Translations under genes and position numbers: made by a program
Shown: one piece after another, positions 54,782-59,515 of the stretch
Numbering within the stretch: the first letter of the stretch is position 1
How the letters are laid out: the number at the start of each line of letters is the position of its first letter
Notes under the pieces: generated by a model
What the model saw: the letters and a program-made list of their open reading frames with translations, nothing else
Database searches by the model: none
Told to the model about the DNA's origin: nothing
DNA from: an uncultured Maribacter sp.
GTDB taxonomy: Bacteria; Bacteroidota; Bacteroidia; Flavobacteriales; Flavobacteriaceae
Assembly (NCBI GenBank): GCA_947498505.1
Contig: CANMKG010000005.1
Coordinates: 62,001-126,000 of the forward strand
Direction: 5' to 3'
DNA: 64,000 nt

Positions 54782-55987
54782 ATGTTAGTAAATAACGCAT
54801 TTCATGTTACCTATTGTACTAATATTCATCCTGGGGCAGATTGGAAACAAACATTTCAAAGCCTAAAGGATAACCTTCCTGAAATAAAAAAAAATGTTGC
54901 TAATAAAGTGGCATTTGGTTTGGGTCTTAGACTCTCAAATAAGGCAAGTGAAGAGTTAAATAATGCTGGTAATTTAGCAGTTTTTAAAAGTTGGCTTGCA
55001 GACAATAATCTTTACGTATTTACCATGAACGGATTTCCATATGGGAATTTTCATGATGAACCAGTTAAAGATTTGGTGCATGCTCCGGATTGGACTACTT
55101 CTGAGAGAATACAATATACTCAACGCCTTTTTGAGCAATTAGAAGCACTGCTTCCAGAAAATATGTCAGGTGGAATATCCACCTCTCCAATAAGTTATAA
55201 ACATTGGTTTAAATCTGATGATTCTAAAAAAGCAGCCTTTACACAAGGGGCAATTAGTTTAATAAAAATTGTAAAACAGCTTTCGGAAATAGAAGAACGT
55301 TCTGGAAAATATTTACACCTGGATATAGAGCCAGAACCTGACGGACTTATTGAAAATAGCGATGAATTTATACAGTTTTTTGAAAACTATTTGATTCCAT
55401 TAGGTGTTGATATTTTAAAGAACGATTTGGATTTCACTTTAACTGAGGCTAAAAATTTAATAAAGAGGTATATAACTATTTGTTATGATATTTGTCATTT
55501 TTCACTTGCGTATGAGGAACCTGAGGATACTTTTAAAAAATTAAAAGCTTCAGGCATTACAGTAGGTAAAATTCAAGTTAGCGCCGCGCTTAAAATAATT
55601 TTCGAAGAAGAGAATAAAGAAGATATTTGGAGAGCACTTTCGGTTTTTAATGAGCCCACATATTTACATCAGGTTACACAAAAAGTGGGAGATGATGTTA
55701 AAACTTATAATGATTTGCCTATTGTTCTAGCCAAGAAGAAGGATTTTAAGGAGCTACGGGCGCATTTTCATGTACCTATTTTTTTAGAACAGTTTGGATT
55801 ACTCCACTCTACTCAAGATCATATTTTAAAGGTAATTTCCATTTTAAAGAAAGACACAATTTCGGAACATTTAGAAATAGAAACTTACACTTGGGATGTG
55901 TTGCCTAAATCGCTCAAAAAAGATTTGTCTGAGTCCATTATTCGAGAAATAGACTGGCTAAATCAAAGATTAAGAAGCCATGAATAA
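54782..55987 (+). CDS. eboE: Metabolite traffic protein EboE
   Basis: A 401-residue TIM-barrel protein of the xylose isomerase-like superfamily. Landmarks are YCTNIHPGADWKQTF near the start, FTMNGFPYGNFH, LHLDIEPEPDGLIEN and CYDICHFSLAYEEP. These acidic and His residues fit a metal-dependent sugar epimerase or isomerase, but its role in ebo is unproven. Starts one base after eboD and overlaps eboF by 8 bases, so the genes are tightly coupled. Confidence 0.9.
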   Translation: MLVNNAFHVTYCTNIHPGADWKQTFQSLKDNLPEIKKNVANKVAFGLGLRLSNKASEELNNAGNLAVFKSWLADNNLYVFTMNGFPYGNFHDEPVKDLVHAPDWTTSERIQYTQRLFEQLEALLPENMSGGISTSPISYKHWFKSDDSKKAAFTQGAISLIKIVKQLSEIEERSGKYLHLDIEPEPDGLIENSDEFIQFFENYLIPLGVDILKNDLDFTLTEAKNLIKRYITICYDICHFSLAYEEPEDTFKKLKASGITVGKIQVSAALKIIFEEENKEDIWRALSVFNEPTYLHQVTQKVGDDVKTYNDLPIVLAKKKDFKELRAHFHVPIFLEQFGLLHSTQDHILKVISILKKDTISEHLEIETYTWDVLPKSLKKDLSESIIREIDWLNQRLRSHE

Positions 55988-57356
55988 AACGGTAGTTATA
56001 AATGTAGTAGGTCTTACCAAACGCCTTATAGGAGAGCATACACCATTTATTAAATCATTTTTAGAAAACGGAAACTATTCATTAATAGATCCTGTTTTAC
56101 CAGCGGTGACCTGTTCCGCACAATCTACATACGTAACGGGTAAGTCGCCGTCAGAACATGGAGTTGTTGGTAACGGTTGGTATTTTAATGAAGAATGTGA
56201 AGTTAAATTTTGGAGGCAATCTAACAAGTTAGTGCAACAACCCAAGTTGTGGGATGAGCTTAAAAATAAGGATTCTGGTTTTACATGTGCTAACCTTTTT
56301 TGGTGGTATAATATGTATTCCACAGTAGATTTTAGTGTTACGCCAAGACCAAATTATTTGGCGGACGGGCGTAAAATACCAGATGTGTATTCATATCCAT
56401 CAGATATAAGAGATAAGCTTCAATCCGAGTTGGGCACTTTTCCTCTATTTAATTTTTGGGGTCCAAAAACTTCAATCAAATCTAGCCAATGGATAGCGGA
56501 TGCCACTATTAAAACTGATGCACTTTATAACCCGACTTTGAGTTTGGTGTATTTACCACATTTGGATTATAACTTACAACGTCACGGTTTAAATTTTGAT
56601 ATTATCTCTAAGGATTTAAACGAGATTGATGGAGTTGTCAAACAACTTGTTGAATACTACCAAAAGCAGAGCGCAAATATTGTGTTGCTTTCTGAATATG
56701 GTATTACTAATGTGAATAATCCAATTCACTTAAATCGTGTGTTGCGAACAAAGGGATATTTAAATATAAGGACGGAAAGAGGTTTGGAGTTGTTGGACTG
56801 TGGTGCTAGTAAGGCTTTTGCAGTAGCAGATCATCAAATTGCTCATGTGTATTTGAATGATAAGTCACTTAAAAGTGAGGTAAAACGGTTGCTTGAAAAT
56901 CAAAAAGGAGTTTCCAAAGTGCTTACTGGTGATGAAATTAAAAATATGCATTTAAATCATGAAAGAAGTGGCGATTTAATAGTTTTAGCAGATGCAACTT
57001 CTTGGTTTACTTACTATTTTTGGAATGACGATAATAAAGCTCCTGATTATGCTAGAATGGTTGATATTCATAAAAAGCCAGGTTATGATCCTGTTGAAAT
57101 GTTAGTTAACCCAAAAGATAAGTTAGTTACGTTGAAAGTAATTTGGAAGCTTTTAAAGAAGAAACTAGGTTTTAGAACCGTATTGGATATAATTCCATTG
57201 AACGCAACATTAATAAAAGGTTCTCATGGTGTGGTTCCTGAAGAGAAAGATGATTATCCTATTTTTATTACTAACAAAAGGGAGATAGCGTTAGCACAAA
57301 ATATATTAGCTACAGATGTGTATTCGTTATTAAAAAAACACGTTTTAGATGATTAA
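55980..57356 (+). CDS. eboF: Nucleotide pyrophosphatase/phosphodiesterase-like EboF
   Basis: A 458-residue member of the alkaline phosphatase superfamily (type I phosphodiesterase, PF01663). Landmarks are INVVGLTKRLIGEHTPF at the start, the nucleophile region PAVTCSAQSTYVTGKSPSEHG, LVYLPHLDYNLQRHG with metal ligands, and GSHGVVP near the end. It lacks an obvious signal peptide, so it may work in the cytoplasm. In ebo clusters it could cleave a nucleotide- or phosphate-linked intermediate; this is inference. Confidence 0.9.
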   Translation: MNKTVVINVVGLTKRLIGEHTPFIKSFLENGNYSLIDPVLPAVTCSAQSTYVTGKSPSEHGVVGNGWYFNEECEVKFWRQSNKLVQQPKLWDELKNKDSGFTCANLFWWYNMYSTVDFSVTPRPNYLADGRKIPDVYSYPSDIRDKLQSELGTFPLFNFWGPKTSIKSSQWIADATIKTDALYNPTLSLVYLPHLDYNLQRHGLNFDIISKDLNEIDGVVKQLVEYYQKQSANIVLLSEYGITNVNNPIHLNRVLRTKGYLNIRTERGLELLDCGASKAFAVADHQIAHVYLNDKSLKSEVKRLLENQKGVSKVLTGDEIKNMHLNHERSGDLIVLADATSWFTYYFWNDDNKAPDYARMVDIHKKPGYDPVEMLVNPKDKLVTLKVIWKLLKKKLGFRTVLDIIPLNATLIKGSHGVVPEEKDDYPIFITNKREIALAQNILATDVYSLLKKHVLDD

Positions 57357-57369
57357 CAAAAAGTAACAT

Positions 57370-57714
57370 ATGAAAAATATACTCAAATTATTAGCAATTG
57401 TATTTACTGGTTATTTTGTATGGGCGGCTTATATGAACAGTAATGACTCGGATGCCACATTGTGGTATTTTATTTATGGTATAGCAGCAATAGCGTCGTT
57501 ATTGTTTATAGCTGAAAAACTGCCTAAAATAGTGTATTTAGTTTTAGCGGTTGGATATGTTGGTGTGGCGTTTTATTTTTGGCCTGAAACCTATGAGGGA
57601 GTAACTATTGGAGAGGGTGATATTAAAAATATAGAAGAGGGAAGAGAGGCTTTGGGATTATTGATTAATGCCGTAGTAATGGCGTTATATGGTTTTGCTT
57701 CAAAATCTAAATAG
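57370..57714 (+). CDS. TMEM220-like small membrane protein at the end of the ebo operon
   Basis: A 114-residue membrane protein with four hydrophobic segments (about 5-20, 30-46, 53-70 and 95-110). The pattern WAAYMNSNDSDATLWYFIYG and a C-terminal membrane helix fit the TMEM220 family (PF15071), whose function is unknown. It begins 14 bases after eboF in the same direction, so it is probably cotranscribed; whether it belongs to the ebo pathway is open. It overlaps the end of convergent dnaX by 8 bases. Confidence 0.82.
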   Translation: MKNILKLLAIVFTGYFVWAAYMNSNDSDATLWYFIYGIAAIASLLFIAEKLPKIVYLVLAVGYVGVAFYFWPETYEGVTIGEGDIKNIEEGREALGLLINAVVMALYGFASKSK

Positions 57715-59515
57715 ATAAATCAAATTCTTTTCTAAGCAAATCTATAACTGCATTTTTTTCTCGAAGCTTTTGGTACTTTTCTTCTGGAGTAAAGGCGAAT
57801 TTCTTTGCTGATTTTTCGTTAACCGTTATATTAAGTTTTATAAAATGATTGTTAAGATTGGTGCGTAAATGCTCCATTAAACCATATTGTTCTCGTTCAA
57901 TTTCCTTTTTCATAGTACTATTTGGTAGTTCAATCCAGATAGTAAAATCATCACGTAAGGAGGGAATATCGGTGTTTAAGTTGGAGGCTAGAATTTTTTG
58001 ACCTTTCTTATCTATTATTTTAACAAAATCAGCCCAATGTTTTTGCATTTCCTCCTCGGCAAAGGACTCCTTGGGTAATTTTTCGGGATCAATTACCACC
58101 TCAATTTTATTAAGCTCGTGTTCTTTTTTAGCTTTAAGACTAGCTATAGATAACCCAGAAACTCTTTTTCTTGGTGAGCTAATGTCAATTTTTATTGCTG
58201 TTTCAGCAGGCTTTTCAATTTCTAAAGTTTCAGGTGTCGCAATTGCAATATCTGATTCTACAGTTTTTGAAGCAATTTCTACCTCTTTTAGTTGAGGTTT
58301 TGGTTCAGCAATTTGTTCTTGGTTATTTTCTTTTGCAGTAACCTCCTGTTGTATTACTTCTTGTTTTTCAGCAACAATATTTTTGAAAAAAGAAGCTGGA
58401 GCAATAAAATTAATCCGGGTGTTATTTAAAGCTAGGGATTCAGGATTTTTTTTTTCTCCATCAAAATTGATAGAGGCTAATTTCATTAAGGTGAGTTCAA
58501 CTAAAAGGCGCTGATTTTTACTGGTTTTGTATTTTAAATCACAGTCGTTGGCAATTTCCAGGGCTCGCAATAAATATGGAGTAGAGGTTTTTCTCGATTG
58601 CTCTAAATAGTTCTTTTTTGCACCCTCACTAACCTCAAGTAAGCTAATGGTATCTTCGTGCTGACAAACCATTAAATCTCTAAAGTGAGAAGACAGTCCA
58701 TTAATAAAATGATGACCATCAAAACCTAATGAGAGGGTTTTGTTGAAAAGAATGAGTAATTGCGGTATTTTGTGTTCAAGTATTAAATCGGTAGCAGAAA
58801 AATAAGTGTCATAATCTAATACATTTAAATTTTCGGTAACAGCTTTACGTGTTAGTTGCTTTCCTGAAAAACTTACTACTCTATCAAAAATGGAAAGCGC
58901 ATCTCGCATGGCTCCATCAGCTTTCTGGGCAATAATGTGTAAAGCATCCTCTTCGGCTTCAATACCTTGACTTTCTGCAATATATTTTAAGTACTCGGCA
59001 GCGTCTTTTACTGTTATCCGCTTAAAATCAAAAATCTGACATCGAGATAATATGGTGGGTATTATTTTGTGCTTTTCGGTAGTTGCAAGAATAAAAATAG
59101 CATGCTTAGGAGGTTCTTCTAAAGTTTTTAGAAAAGCATTAAAAGCAGATTGCGATAACATATGTACCTCATCAATGATGTATACCTTATACTTACCTAC
59201 TTGAGGTGGTATTCTAACCTGGTCGATAAGGCTTCTAATATCATCAACAGAGTTATTAGAGGCTGCATCCAATTCAAAAACATTAAAGGCAAAGTCCTCC
59301 TCTGTTTTTTCAGTACCGTCTTGGTTAATTTGTTTAGCCAAAATACGTGCACATGAGGTTTTCCCAACACCACGAGGTCCACAAAAAAGTAATGCTTGAG
59401 CAAGATGATTATGTTCTATAGCATTAAGCAGAGTTTTAGTAATAGCTTGTTGCCCAACAACATCTTTAAATGTTTTTGGTCTGTACTTTCTAGCTGATAC
59501 TATAAATGGTTCCAA
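57707..59515 (-). CDS. dnaX: DNA polymerase III subunit tau (and possibly gamma)
   Basis: The clamp-loader ATPase and replisome organiser. The 602 residues begin with SARKYRPKTFKDVVGQ; Walker A is GPRGVGKTS (about residues 44-52), then YIIDEVHMLS and the arginine-finger ILSRCQIF. Domain III ends near residue 350. The usual four-cysteine zinc site between Walker A and the ELDAAS motif is absent; the short segment INQDGTEKTEEDFAF stands there. The gene holds a run of ten A (minus strand, 58446-58455) at codons 354-357, discussed separately. The C-terminal part is rich in Glu and Lys. Confidence 0.96.
   Translation of the reverse strand: MEPFIVSARKYRPKTFKDVVGQQAITKTLLNAIEHNHLAQALLFCGPRGVGKTSCARILAKQINQDGTEKTEEDFAFNVFELDAASNNSVDDIRSLIDQVRIPPQVGKYKVYIIDEVHMLSQSAFNAFLKTLEEPPKHAIFILATTEKHKIIPTILSRCQIFDFKRITVKDAAEYLKYIAESQGIEAEEDALHIIAQKADGAMRDALSIFDRVVSFSGKQLTRKAVTENLNVLDYDTYFSATDLILEHKIPQLLILFNKTLSLGFDGHHFINGLSSHFRDLMVCQHEDTISLLEVSEGAKKNYLEQSRKTSTPYLLRALEIANDCDLKYKTSKNQRLLVELTLMKLASINFDGEKKNPESLALNNTRINFIAPASFFKNIVAEKQEVIQQEVTAKENNQEQIAEPKPQLKEVEIASKTVESDIAIATPETLEIEKPAETAIKIDISSPRKRVSGLSIASLKAKKEHELNKIEVVIDPEKLPKESFAEEEMQKHWADFVKIIDKKGQKILASNLNTDIPSLRDDFTIWIELPNSTMKKEIEREQYGLMEHLRTNLNNHFIKLNITVNEKSAKKFAFTPEEKYQKLREKNAVIDLLRKEFDLSI
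58446..58455 (-). promoter_or_regulatory. A10 slippery run in dnaX
   Basis: The coding strand reads GGA GAA AAA AAA AAT CCT GAA: ten A in a row at codons 354-357. One extra A gives GAA AAA AAA AAA TCC TGA (stop 2 codons after the run); one A fewer gives AAA ATC CTG AAT CCC TAG (stop 5 codons on). Either slip would yield a product of about 360 residues covering domains I-III. Confidence 0.6.

Follow-up and report, generated by a model that had tools for sequence, protein, structure and literature searches.

The dnaX gene of the Maribacter window (the whole 64-kb stretch of DNA analyzed here) carries ten consecutive A residues just beyond the region encoding domain III, and programmed transcriptional slippage on this A10 tract very probably gives rise to two proteins, a gamma-like product of 358–361 residues and the 602-residue tau. 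This interpretation is founded on comparison of dnaX genes, in the absence of RNA or protein data. A hairpin on the 5′ side of the tract, the spread of the tract over the phylum, and a reversed arrangement of the two products go beyond the original prediction that this analysis followed up.

The dnaX gene and its A10 tract

The dnaX gene occupies positions 57707–59515 of the minus strand, where an open reading frame with a TTG start encodes full-length tau (602 residues). The NCBIfam model NF011531 (PRK14971, gamma/tau) covers residues 2–602 with a score of 711 bits (cut-off 685) and names the protein DNA polymerase III subunit gamma/tau; the solved structures that best match it are bacterial DNA polymerase III tau/gamma chains. 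The AAA+ ATPase and lid domains and domain III, common to gamma and tau, span residues 1–348 (58472–59515, minus strand), as delimited by TIGR02397 (residues 6–346) and by the Pfam families PF13177 (22–167), PF22608 (174–218), and PF12169 (222–348), the last of which scores 22.4 bits, under its cut-off of 24.4. Domain III ends at residue 346–348, and the A10 run starts six to eight residues later.

The original prediction of ten A residues at codons 354–357, with prompt stops in both other frames, is borne out. The proposed slippage tract (58446–58455, minus strand; T10 on the plus strand) has its first A at position 2 of codon 354 and occupies GAA AAA AAA AAT within the codons GAT GGA GAA AAA AAA AAT CCT GAA TCC CTA GCT. 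One additional A in the message would bring a TGA (58440–58442, minus strand) into frame, while loss of one A or gain of two would lead to a TAG (58432–58434, minus strand). Computed from the window gene, an A11 message encodes a protein ending in EKKKS (358 residues, 40.5 kDa), an A9 message one ending in EKKILNP (360 residues, 40.7 kDa), and a message with two extra A residues one of 361 residues. The A10 message encodes tau (68.5 kDa), and three extra A residues give tau plus one Lys. An Rfam search of positions 58200–58800 returned just two matches, both far under their gathering scores.

The tract is the longest A/T run of eight or more in the window, the next being an A9 (54886–54894) and the others 8. 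A run of at least nine A residues arises at the boundary in about 32% of synonymous versions of the window gene made with its own codon usage; a single genome is therefore weak evidence, and comparative evidence has to decide.

The A9 run, the only one in the window, lies inside an EboE-like gene close to dnaX (54782–55987, plus strand; NF035939, 487 bits) and has no abutting hairpin. This gene shares 8 bases with the next open reading frame (55980–57356).

Conservation of the tract across the Bacteroidota

The search for DnaX covered 8 genomes of the genus, 299 of the family, 148 of the order, 198 of the class, and 198 of the phylum. All sets but that of the genus were drawn evenly, and they overlap; matches at the set E-value numbered 8, 292, 138, 193, and 196, respectively. 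From these, 246 dnaX loci were taken, leaving 239 genes after seven duplicates were dropped. Within the family, the best-scoring loci were followed by about every third listed match and then by Flavobacterium-like ones; outside it, mostly one or two loci were taken per family code among the matches listed. Each group is counted without those closer to the window, which gives 8 genes for the genus, 84 for the family, 35 for the order, 72 for the class, and 40 for the other classes. The sample is broad, not random, and relatives are not independent, so no overall P value is given. The end of domain III was mapped in each gene by alignment, and the longest A-run was sought in an interval reaching from 3 codons upstream of this point to 60 codons downstream. 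One gene whose contig ends just after the run (L120) was left out of the frame, tree, and length counts, and one order gene with N letters was left out of the synonymous null and the Shine–Dalgarno, folding, and stop tests. For the synonymous null, codons were resampled from each gene's own usage; this null is conservative, because the Lys residues may themselves exist owing to the run.

An A-run of nine or more (A9–A13) is present at the domain III boundary in 209 of the 239 distinct genes: 8/8 in the genus, 84/84 in the family, 35/35 in the order, 64/72 in the class, and 18/40 in other classes. The synonymous null predicts 3.98/8, 37.5/84, 14.4/34, 24.8/72, and 4.9/40, against 8, 84, 34 (of 34), 64, and 18 observed. 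All genus runs are A10, as are 79 of 84 in the family. The check originally proposed, whether the run is kept in relatives, comes out in its favor, since all 92 genus and family genes have at least ten A residues in a row; interruption by AAG in close relatives, named beforehand as a refutation, was not found among these 92 genes, whose runs stay at ten or more even where they end in an AAG codon.

Run lengths in 208 genes are A9 in 25, A10 in 169, A11 in 11, A12 in two, and A13 in one. A10 occurs in all three codon phases and in both arrangements described below, and is the commonest length in five of the six phase-by-arrangement classes. There is no gene with a longest boundary run of exactly 8; those without the tract (30 of the 239 sampled) have 7 or fewer. 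By genus code, 168 genera have the run in every sampled gene and 26 have it in none. The boundary windows hold runs of at least nine in 209 genes over 13,139 codons, against five such runs in the remaining 122,046 codons of the 239 reading frames. The tract persists in genomes of 66% GC (L243) and 63% GC (L245), where only 12% and 23%, respectively, of the Lys codons are AAA. In a FastTree phylogeny built from the N-terminal part of DnaX (238 genes), tract presence changes at least 16 times. The run in L133 sits 49 codons off and is possibly a different element.

The genome that contains the window has five further A10 runs in sense within long open reading frames, of which three near the start of the frame (L066, L081, L082) were left out and the two away from it were compared. 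One gene (L076) has an A9 at that place in its closest relative, an A8 nearby in one more, and 7 or fewer over the final 42 codons in the remaining five. The other (L078) had no homolog at E ≤ 1e-100 in seven relatives.

Boundary runs of eight or more are lacking altogether in 22 of 40 other-class and 8 of 72 class genes (for example L146, L225, and L268–L276). In a second set, of 20 order-level dnaX genes from genomes under 2 Mb, 12 carry the run: 8 of 10 from genomes of 1.2–1.7 Mb and 4 of 10 from genomes of 0.3–0.6 Mb, whose small size resembles that of insect endosymbionts. One of these last four has its run 55 codons away. In the smallest genome (L419, positions 1–2301), dnaX is a gamma-length frame of 346 residues with no run at the boundary, and in two other very small genomes (L425, L426) an A11 is followed by a tau-like tail in a shifted frame.

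Reading frames beyond the tract

In 201 of 208 genes, a single frame stays open for more than 60 codons beyond the tract and both others are closed within 12; at random cut points in the same one-ORF genes, both wrong frames were closed within 12 codons in 1118 of 2860 cases. The longer of the two other frames exceeds 20 codons in L248 (86 codons) and L251 (22). With the protein held fixed and codons resampled synonymously, 48 of the 163 one-ORF genes would be expected to close both wrong frames within 8 codons, and 150 do so (observed counts, with expectations in brackets, are 8/8 [4.5] in the genus, 71/74 [16.0] in the family, 15/18 [6.1] in the order, 45/49 [17.1] in the class, and 11/14 [4.3] in other classes). 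Codon choice in one recurrent motif illustrates this: the first Ile of I-[IVL]-P after the run is ATA in 43 of 45 genes, where 10.6 are expected, and ATA with a following A supplies TAA in one shifted frame. As both stops are kept at synonymous sites, selection appears, from the codon usage, to hold the stops in both wrong frames.

The genes fall into two ARRANGEMENTS. Tau occupies the DNA-encoded frame in 164 genes, the window gene included, and a shifted frame in 44. In the latter, the DNA frame meets a stop no more than 9 codons from where the run begins, and the shifted frame is open for about 190–243 codons; a tau-tail profile matches this open frame in 42 of the 44 (no match in L277 and L300). 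These two-ORF genes, of Flavobacterium type, would make gamma directly and tau by slippage, an inference for which there are no RNA or protein data. The shift needed is a gain of one A in 40 and a loss of one A in four (L101, L107, L113, L226). On the same tree, at least 24 switches between one-ORF and two-ORF genes and at least 33 phase changes are counted among tract-bearing genes.

The arrangements were also tallied in named genome contigs among the matches listed. The pattern that found these 118 contigs includes the run, hence they are no evidence for its presence. They comprise 69 one-ORF and 47 two-ORF genes and two that are cut; one gene counted as one-ORF (L376) is open for just 59 codons. 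Among the matches listed, Flavobacterium records are two-ORF in 34 of 35 cases, Flagellimonas has both arrangements, and the Formosa, Lacinutrix, and Psychroserpens records have an A11 and need the loss of one A.

The gamma-like product of about 360 residues, ending just past domain III, that had been predicted for this organism thus receives support, of a comparative kind only, from the synonymous retention of both alternative-frame stops; a second DnaX product is further supported by the 44 genes whose DNA frame ends after the run and whose tau tail is encoded in another frame.

A predicted hairpin abuts the tract

Directly upstream of the tract, the window sequence can fold into a hairpin (58456–58475, minus strand; RNAfold) with arms CTCTATCA (58468–58475) and TGATGGAG (58456–58463) and an ATTT loop (58464–58467). 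It has eight pairs, one of them G-U, a predicted energy of −8.4 kcal/mol, and its last base directly before the run, with zero gap. It is more stable than in synonymous versions of the gene (P = 0.015). The same test gives P ≤ 0.05 in 68 of 92 genus and family genes and 16 of 64 class genes; outside the family, the hairpin is mostly not significant in the order (4/33 at P ≤ 0.05) or in other classes (1/18).

A 26-nt sliding window places the signal at the run. In the 92 genus and family genes, mean energy is −0.8 six bases upstream, −7.2 kcal/mol at the run, and −1.1 just after it; in 64 class genes the values are −2.6, −6.0, and −2.0. At the run, the order (−3.7) and other classes (−3.2) show a weaker dip. 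Against the synonymous control, the 45 nt upstream hardly differ (z of −0.36 vs. −0.21), and the last 26–30 nt carry the signal (−0.83 vs. −0.02). Among 21 of the roughly 26 separate runs of at least ten in the genome that contains the window, the next most stable 5′ hairpin has −4.0. In the class hairpins shown, both sequence and distance from domain III vary.

Covariation was assessed over 63 distinct family sequences. Pairing is retained in 79.4% of cells, compared with 76.8% in shuffles (0/500 reach the observed value) and 44–50% in slid controls; 13 cells are changed on both sides, a number reached by 2/500 shuffles and one slid control. The synonymous-codon folding test is preferred over column covariation because many genes shift register. 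Judged from these folding predictions, the family conserves a hairpin that abuts the run on its 5′ side, and some of the class genes have one too.

RNA polymerase, ribosome, or replication

Whether polymerase or ribosome would be responsible was left open by the original prediction; the comparative evidence favors RNA polymerase. During transcription of the T10 template, the RNA:DNA hybrid, of 9–10 bp according to the available part of PMC5009743, would be entirely rA:dT and could realign by one or more bases. A10, the commonest length, matches that of the hybrid as given in the same source. The nascent hairpin directly behind the tract would probably stimulate slippage, comparably to the effect of a terminator hairpin on the hybrid. 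The resulting mRNA pool would contain tracts of mixed length: A10 and A13 messages would encode tau, and A9, A11, and A12 messages would stop within a few codons to give a gamma-like protein of 358–361 residues that keeps the ATPase and domain III without the tau tail. Slippage by RNA polymerase fits because the homopolymer is of hybrid length, stops lie in both frames, both directions are used, any phase serves, the hairpin is 5′, and there is no 3′ stem-loop signal. The tract, the hairpin potential, the stops, their conservation, and the synonymous selection are read from the genes; that slippage occurs, the level at which it does so, its efficiency, and the part of the hairpin remain inferred. 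Counting against this reading, besides the tRNA-Lys complement and the heptamer considered below, are the 30 of 239 genes without the tract and the lack of a significant hairpin in most order, class, and other-class genes.

The main rival is that gamma is made by −1 frameshifting of the ribosome on the A-run (A_AAA_AAA in frame), a mechanism known from E. coli dnaX, or by ribosome and polymerase acting together; we consider it improbable, though not negligible. An A10 in any phase contains two AAA codons after an A, the window tract holds an in-frame A_AAA_AAA heptamer, and several relatives read GAA AAA AAA AAG, which contains A_AAA_AAG; the latter, E. coli-type site is absent in frame from the window (GAA AAA AAA AAT). 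The −1 frame, equivalent to one added A, is the one needed in 40 of the 44 two-ORF genes. A single tRNA-Lys gene was called, with anticodon UUU, and none with CUU (45 tRNA matches, two uncalled by ARAGORN). E. coli likewise has tRNA-Lys UUU and no CUU gene, and ribosomal shifting is known there. Following the argument in PMC5009743, such a tRNA set is more compatible with ribosomal frameshifting on A-runs than the Thermus case is.

Several observations weigh against this rival. The frame entered on loss of one A is closed within 8 codons in 151 of 163 genes (77 expected), a stop that −1 frameshifting alone does not need, and the opposite shift is required in four genes of the main set and in the three named genera Formosa, Lacinutrix, and Psychroserpens. 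The known −1 frameshift in E. coli dnaX uses A_AAA_AAG with a 5′ Shine–Dalgarno sequence and a 3′ stem-loop. Here, the hairpin lies on the 5′ side of the tract, and the 60 nt downstream show no stem-loop signal in 163 genes (z of −0.23 vs. −0.32 in controls). An extended Shine–Dalgarno-like motif (AGGAG, GGAGG, GAGGT, or AGGGG) occurs within 20 nt upstream in just 10 of 208 genes, although in the window itself a GGAG touches the tract and may yet play such a part. Bacteroidota ribosomes generally make little use of Shine–Dalgarno pairing. Over these gene sets, neither a 3′ stem-loop (163 genes) nor an extended upstream Shine–Dalgarno sequence (208 genes) of the E. coli kind gave a signal.

It is very unlikely that the short product stems from changes of tract length in the DNA itself, through replication slippage or phase variation in a subpopulation of cells. 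Tract lengths of 9–13 do exist, and near-identical contexts carry an A11 in L378 (Formosa sp. isolate CPC323) and an A10 in L389 (an uncultured Flavobacteriaceae bin). However, tau is expected to be essential, so fixed gamma-only cells would not persist; stops in both frames, together with one fixed modal length, are in keeping with something that happens in all cells; and some A11 records come from metagenome assemblies and could reflect errors. L378 and L389 share the same 16 bases after the run and differ in DNA frame, and both look like metagenome assemblies.

Neutral persistence of a Lys-rich linker in AT-rich genomes, for which it can be said that the protein alone gives a run of at least nine in about 45–50% of synonymous versions in genus and family, can be dismissed given the 92/92 observed, the presence of the tract at high GC, its persistence while phases and flanking residues change, the varying length of the L076 run among relatives, and the synonymous stop test.

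Relation to known systems

Transcriptional slippage in dnaX of Thermus thermophilus was reportedly described by Larsen et al. in 2000. The window gene resembles it in having a single tau frame, a sense A-run of at least nine, and stops just after it in both non-zero frames, and the production of gamma from slipped messages, as in Thermus, is what we propose for it. The Thermus run is A9, whereas most in Bacteroidota dnaX are A10; it lies seven-eighths of the way through the coding sequence (PMC1088944, in the part available), in contrast to the window gene, where it sits at the domain III boundary (codon 354 out of 602). Hallmarks of the Thermus type also include an mRNA pool of mixed tract length and nearly 1:1 amounts of gamma and tau. 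The available portions of PMC1088944, PMC3711429, and PMC5009743 mention no 5′ hairpin in Thermus dnaX. Truncating cases of this kind are described as hard to find by comparison (PMC1088944, available text).

The nearest precedent is the GeneTack survey (Antonov et al. 2013, PMC3711429), which, in its accessible sections, lists 17 two-ORF dnaX genes from 12 genera, nine of them with ten A residues, infers slippage, and names three green sulfur species; the nine may well include Bacteroidota. The 44 two-ORF relatives found here, Flavobacterium among them, are of this type, tau requiring a shift; the window gene, being one-ORF, is not. Those sections do not mention one-ORF partners in the same families, switching between arrangements, or a hairpin.

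A nascent hairpin directly 5′ of the slippage site, a feature the window gene shares, is known from the Roseiflexus insertion sequence IS630, where a stem-loop stimulates slippage; the same article also treats Thermus slippage on nine As/Ts (PMC5009743, part available). The Roseiflexus site differs in being a heteropolymeric T5C5 in a transposase gene with one-base deletion only (PMC5009743, same part), whereas here a homopolymer lies in a core replication gene. As in E. coli dnaX, gamma and tau would come from one gene, gamma ending after domain III; unlike E. coli, there are an A10, a 5′ hairpin, and no 3′ stem-loop signal. In Blochmannia, a homopolymer frameshift in dnaX lies downstream of the E. 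coli-type site, according to the accessible part of PMC3017870. Titles and abstracts in the literature searched contained nothing on slippage or a 5′ hairpin in Bacteroidota dnaX, PMC3711429 being the closest; most subscription papers lay outside the search. Slippage in dnaX is known from Thermus; what looks new is the scale, the presence of a hairpin, and the interchangeability of the frames.

Implications

We lean, by a small margin of confidence, toward a broader proposal: in much of the Bacteroidota, a nascent hairpin and an A10 tract equal in length to the RNA:DNA hybrid may form a compact element that yields both DnaX proteins, and on which polymerase slips so freely that the DNA frame after the tract hardly matters. 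For this reason, lineages would have moved by drift between direct encoding of tau and direct encoding of gamma at least two dozen times, selection keeping the tract, one open frame, and two stops. If true, a core chromosomal gene would harbor a slippage element that is homopolymeric and assisted by a hairpin. Knowledge of what stimulates transcriptional realignment is very limited, as the available text of PMC5009743 puts it, and the many natural versions of the element could be used to probe how tract length and hairpin determine polymerase slippage. Whether gamma matters to the cell is a subject of considerable controversy (PMC5009743, in the part available); selection for gamma over much of a phylum, surviving repeated reversals of frame, would be strong evidence that both proteins are wanted. 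The dnaX genes of Flavobacterium and other two-ORF lineages, whose DNA frame ends near residue 360, should be taken to encode tau too.

A further A10 was noticed beside an unrelated gene in three genomes of the same genus (L443, L444, L445), where a likely coding sequence starts with ATG followed directly by the run (ATGAAAAAAAAAATATTACTTGCAGATG). It is possibly a site of slippage or of expression control; two other loci (L446, L447) have an A8 at this position.
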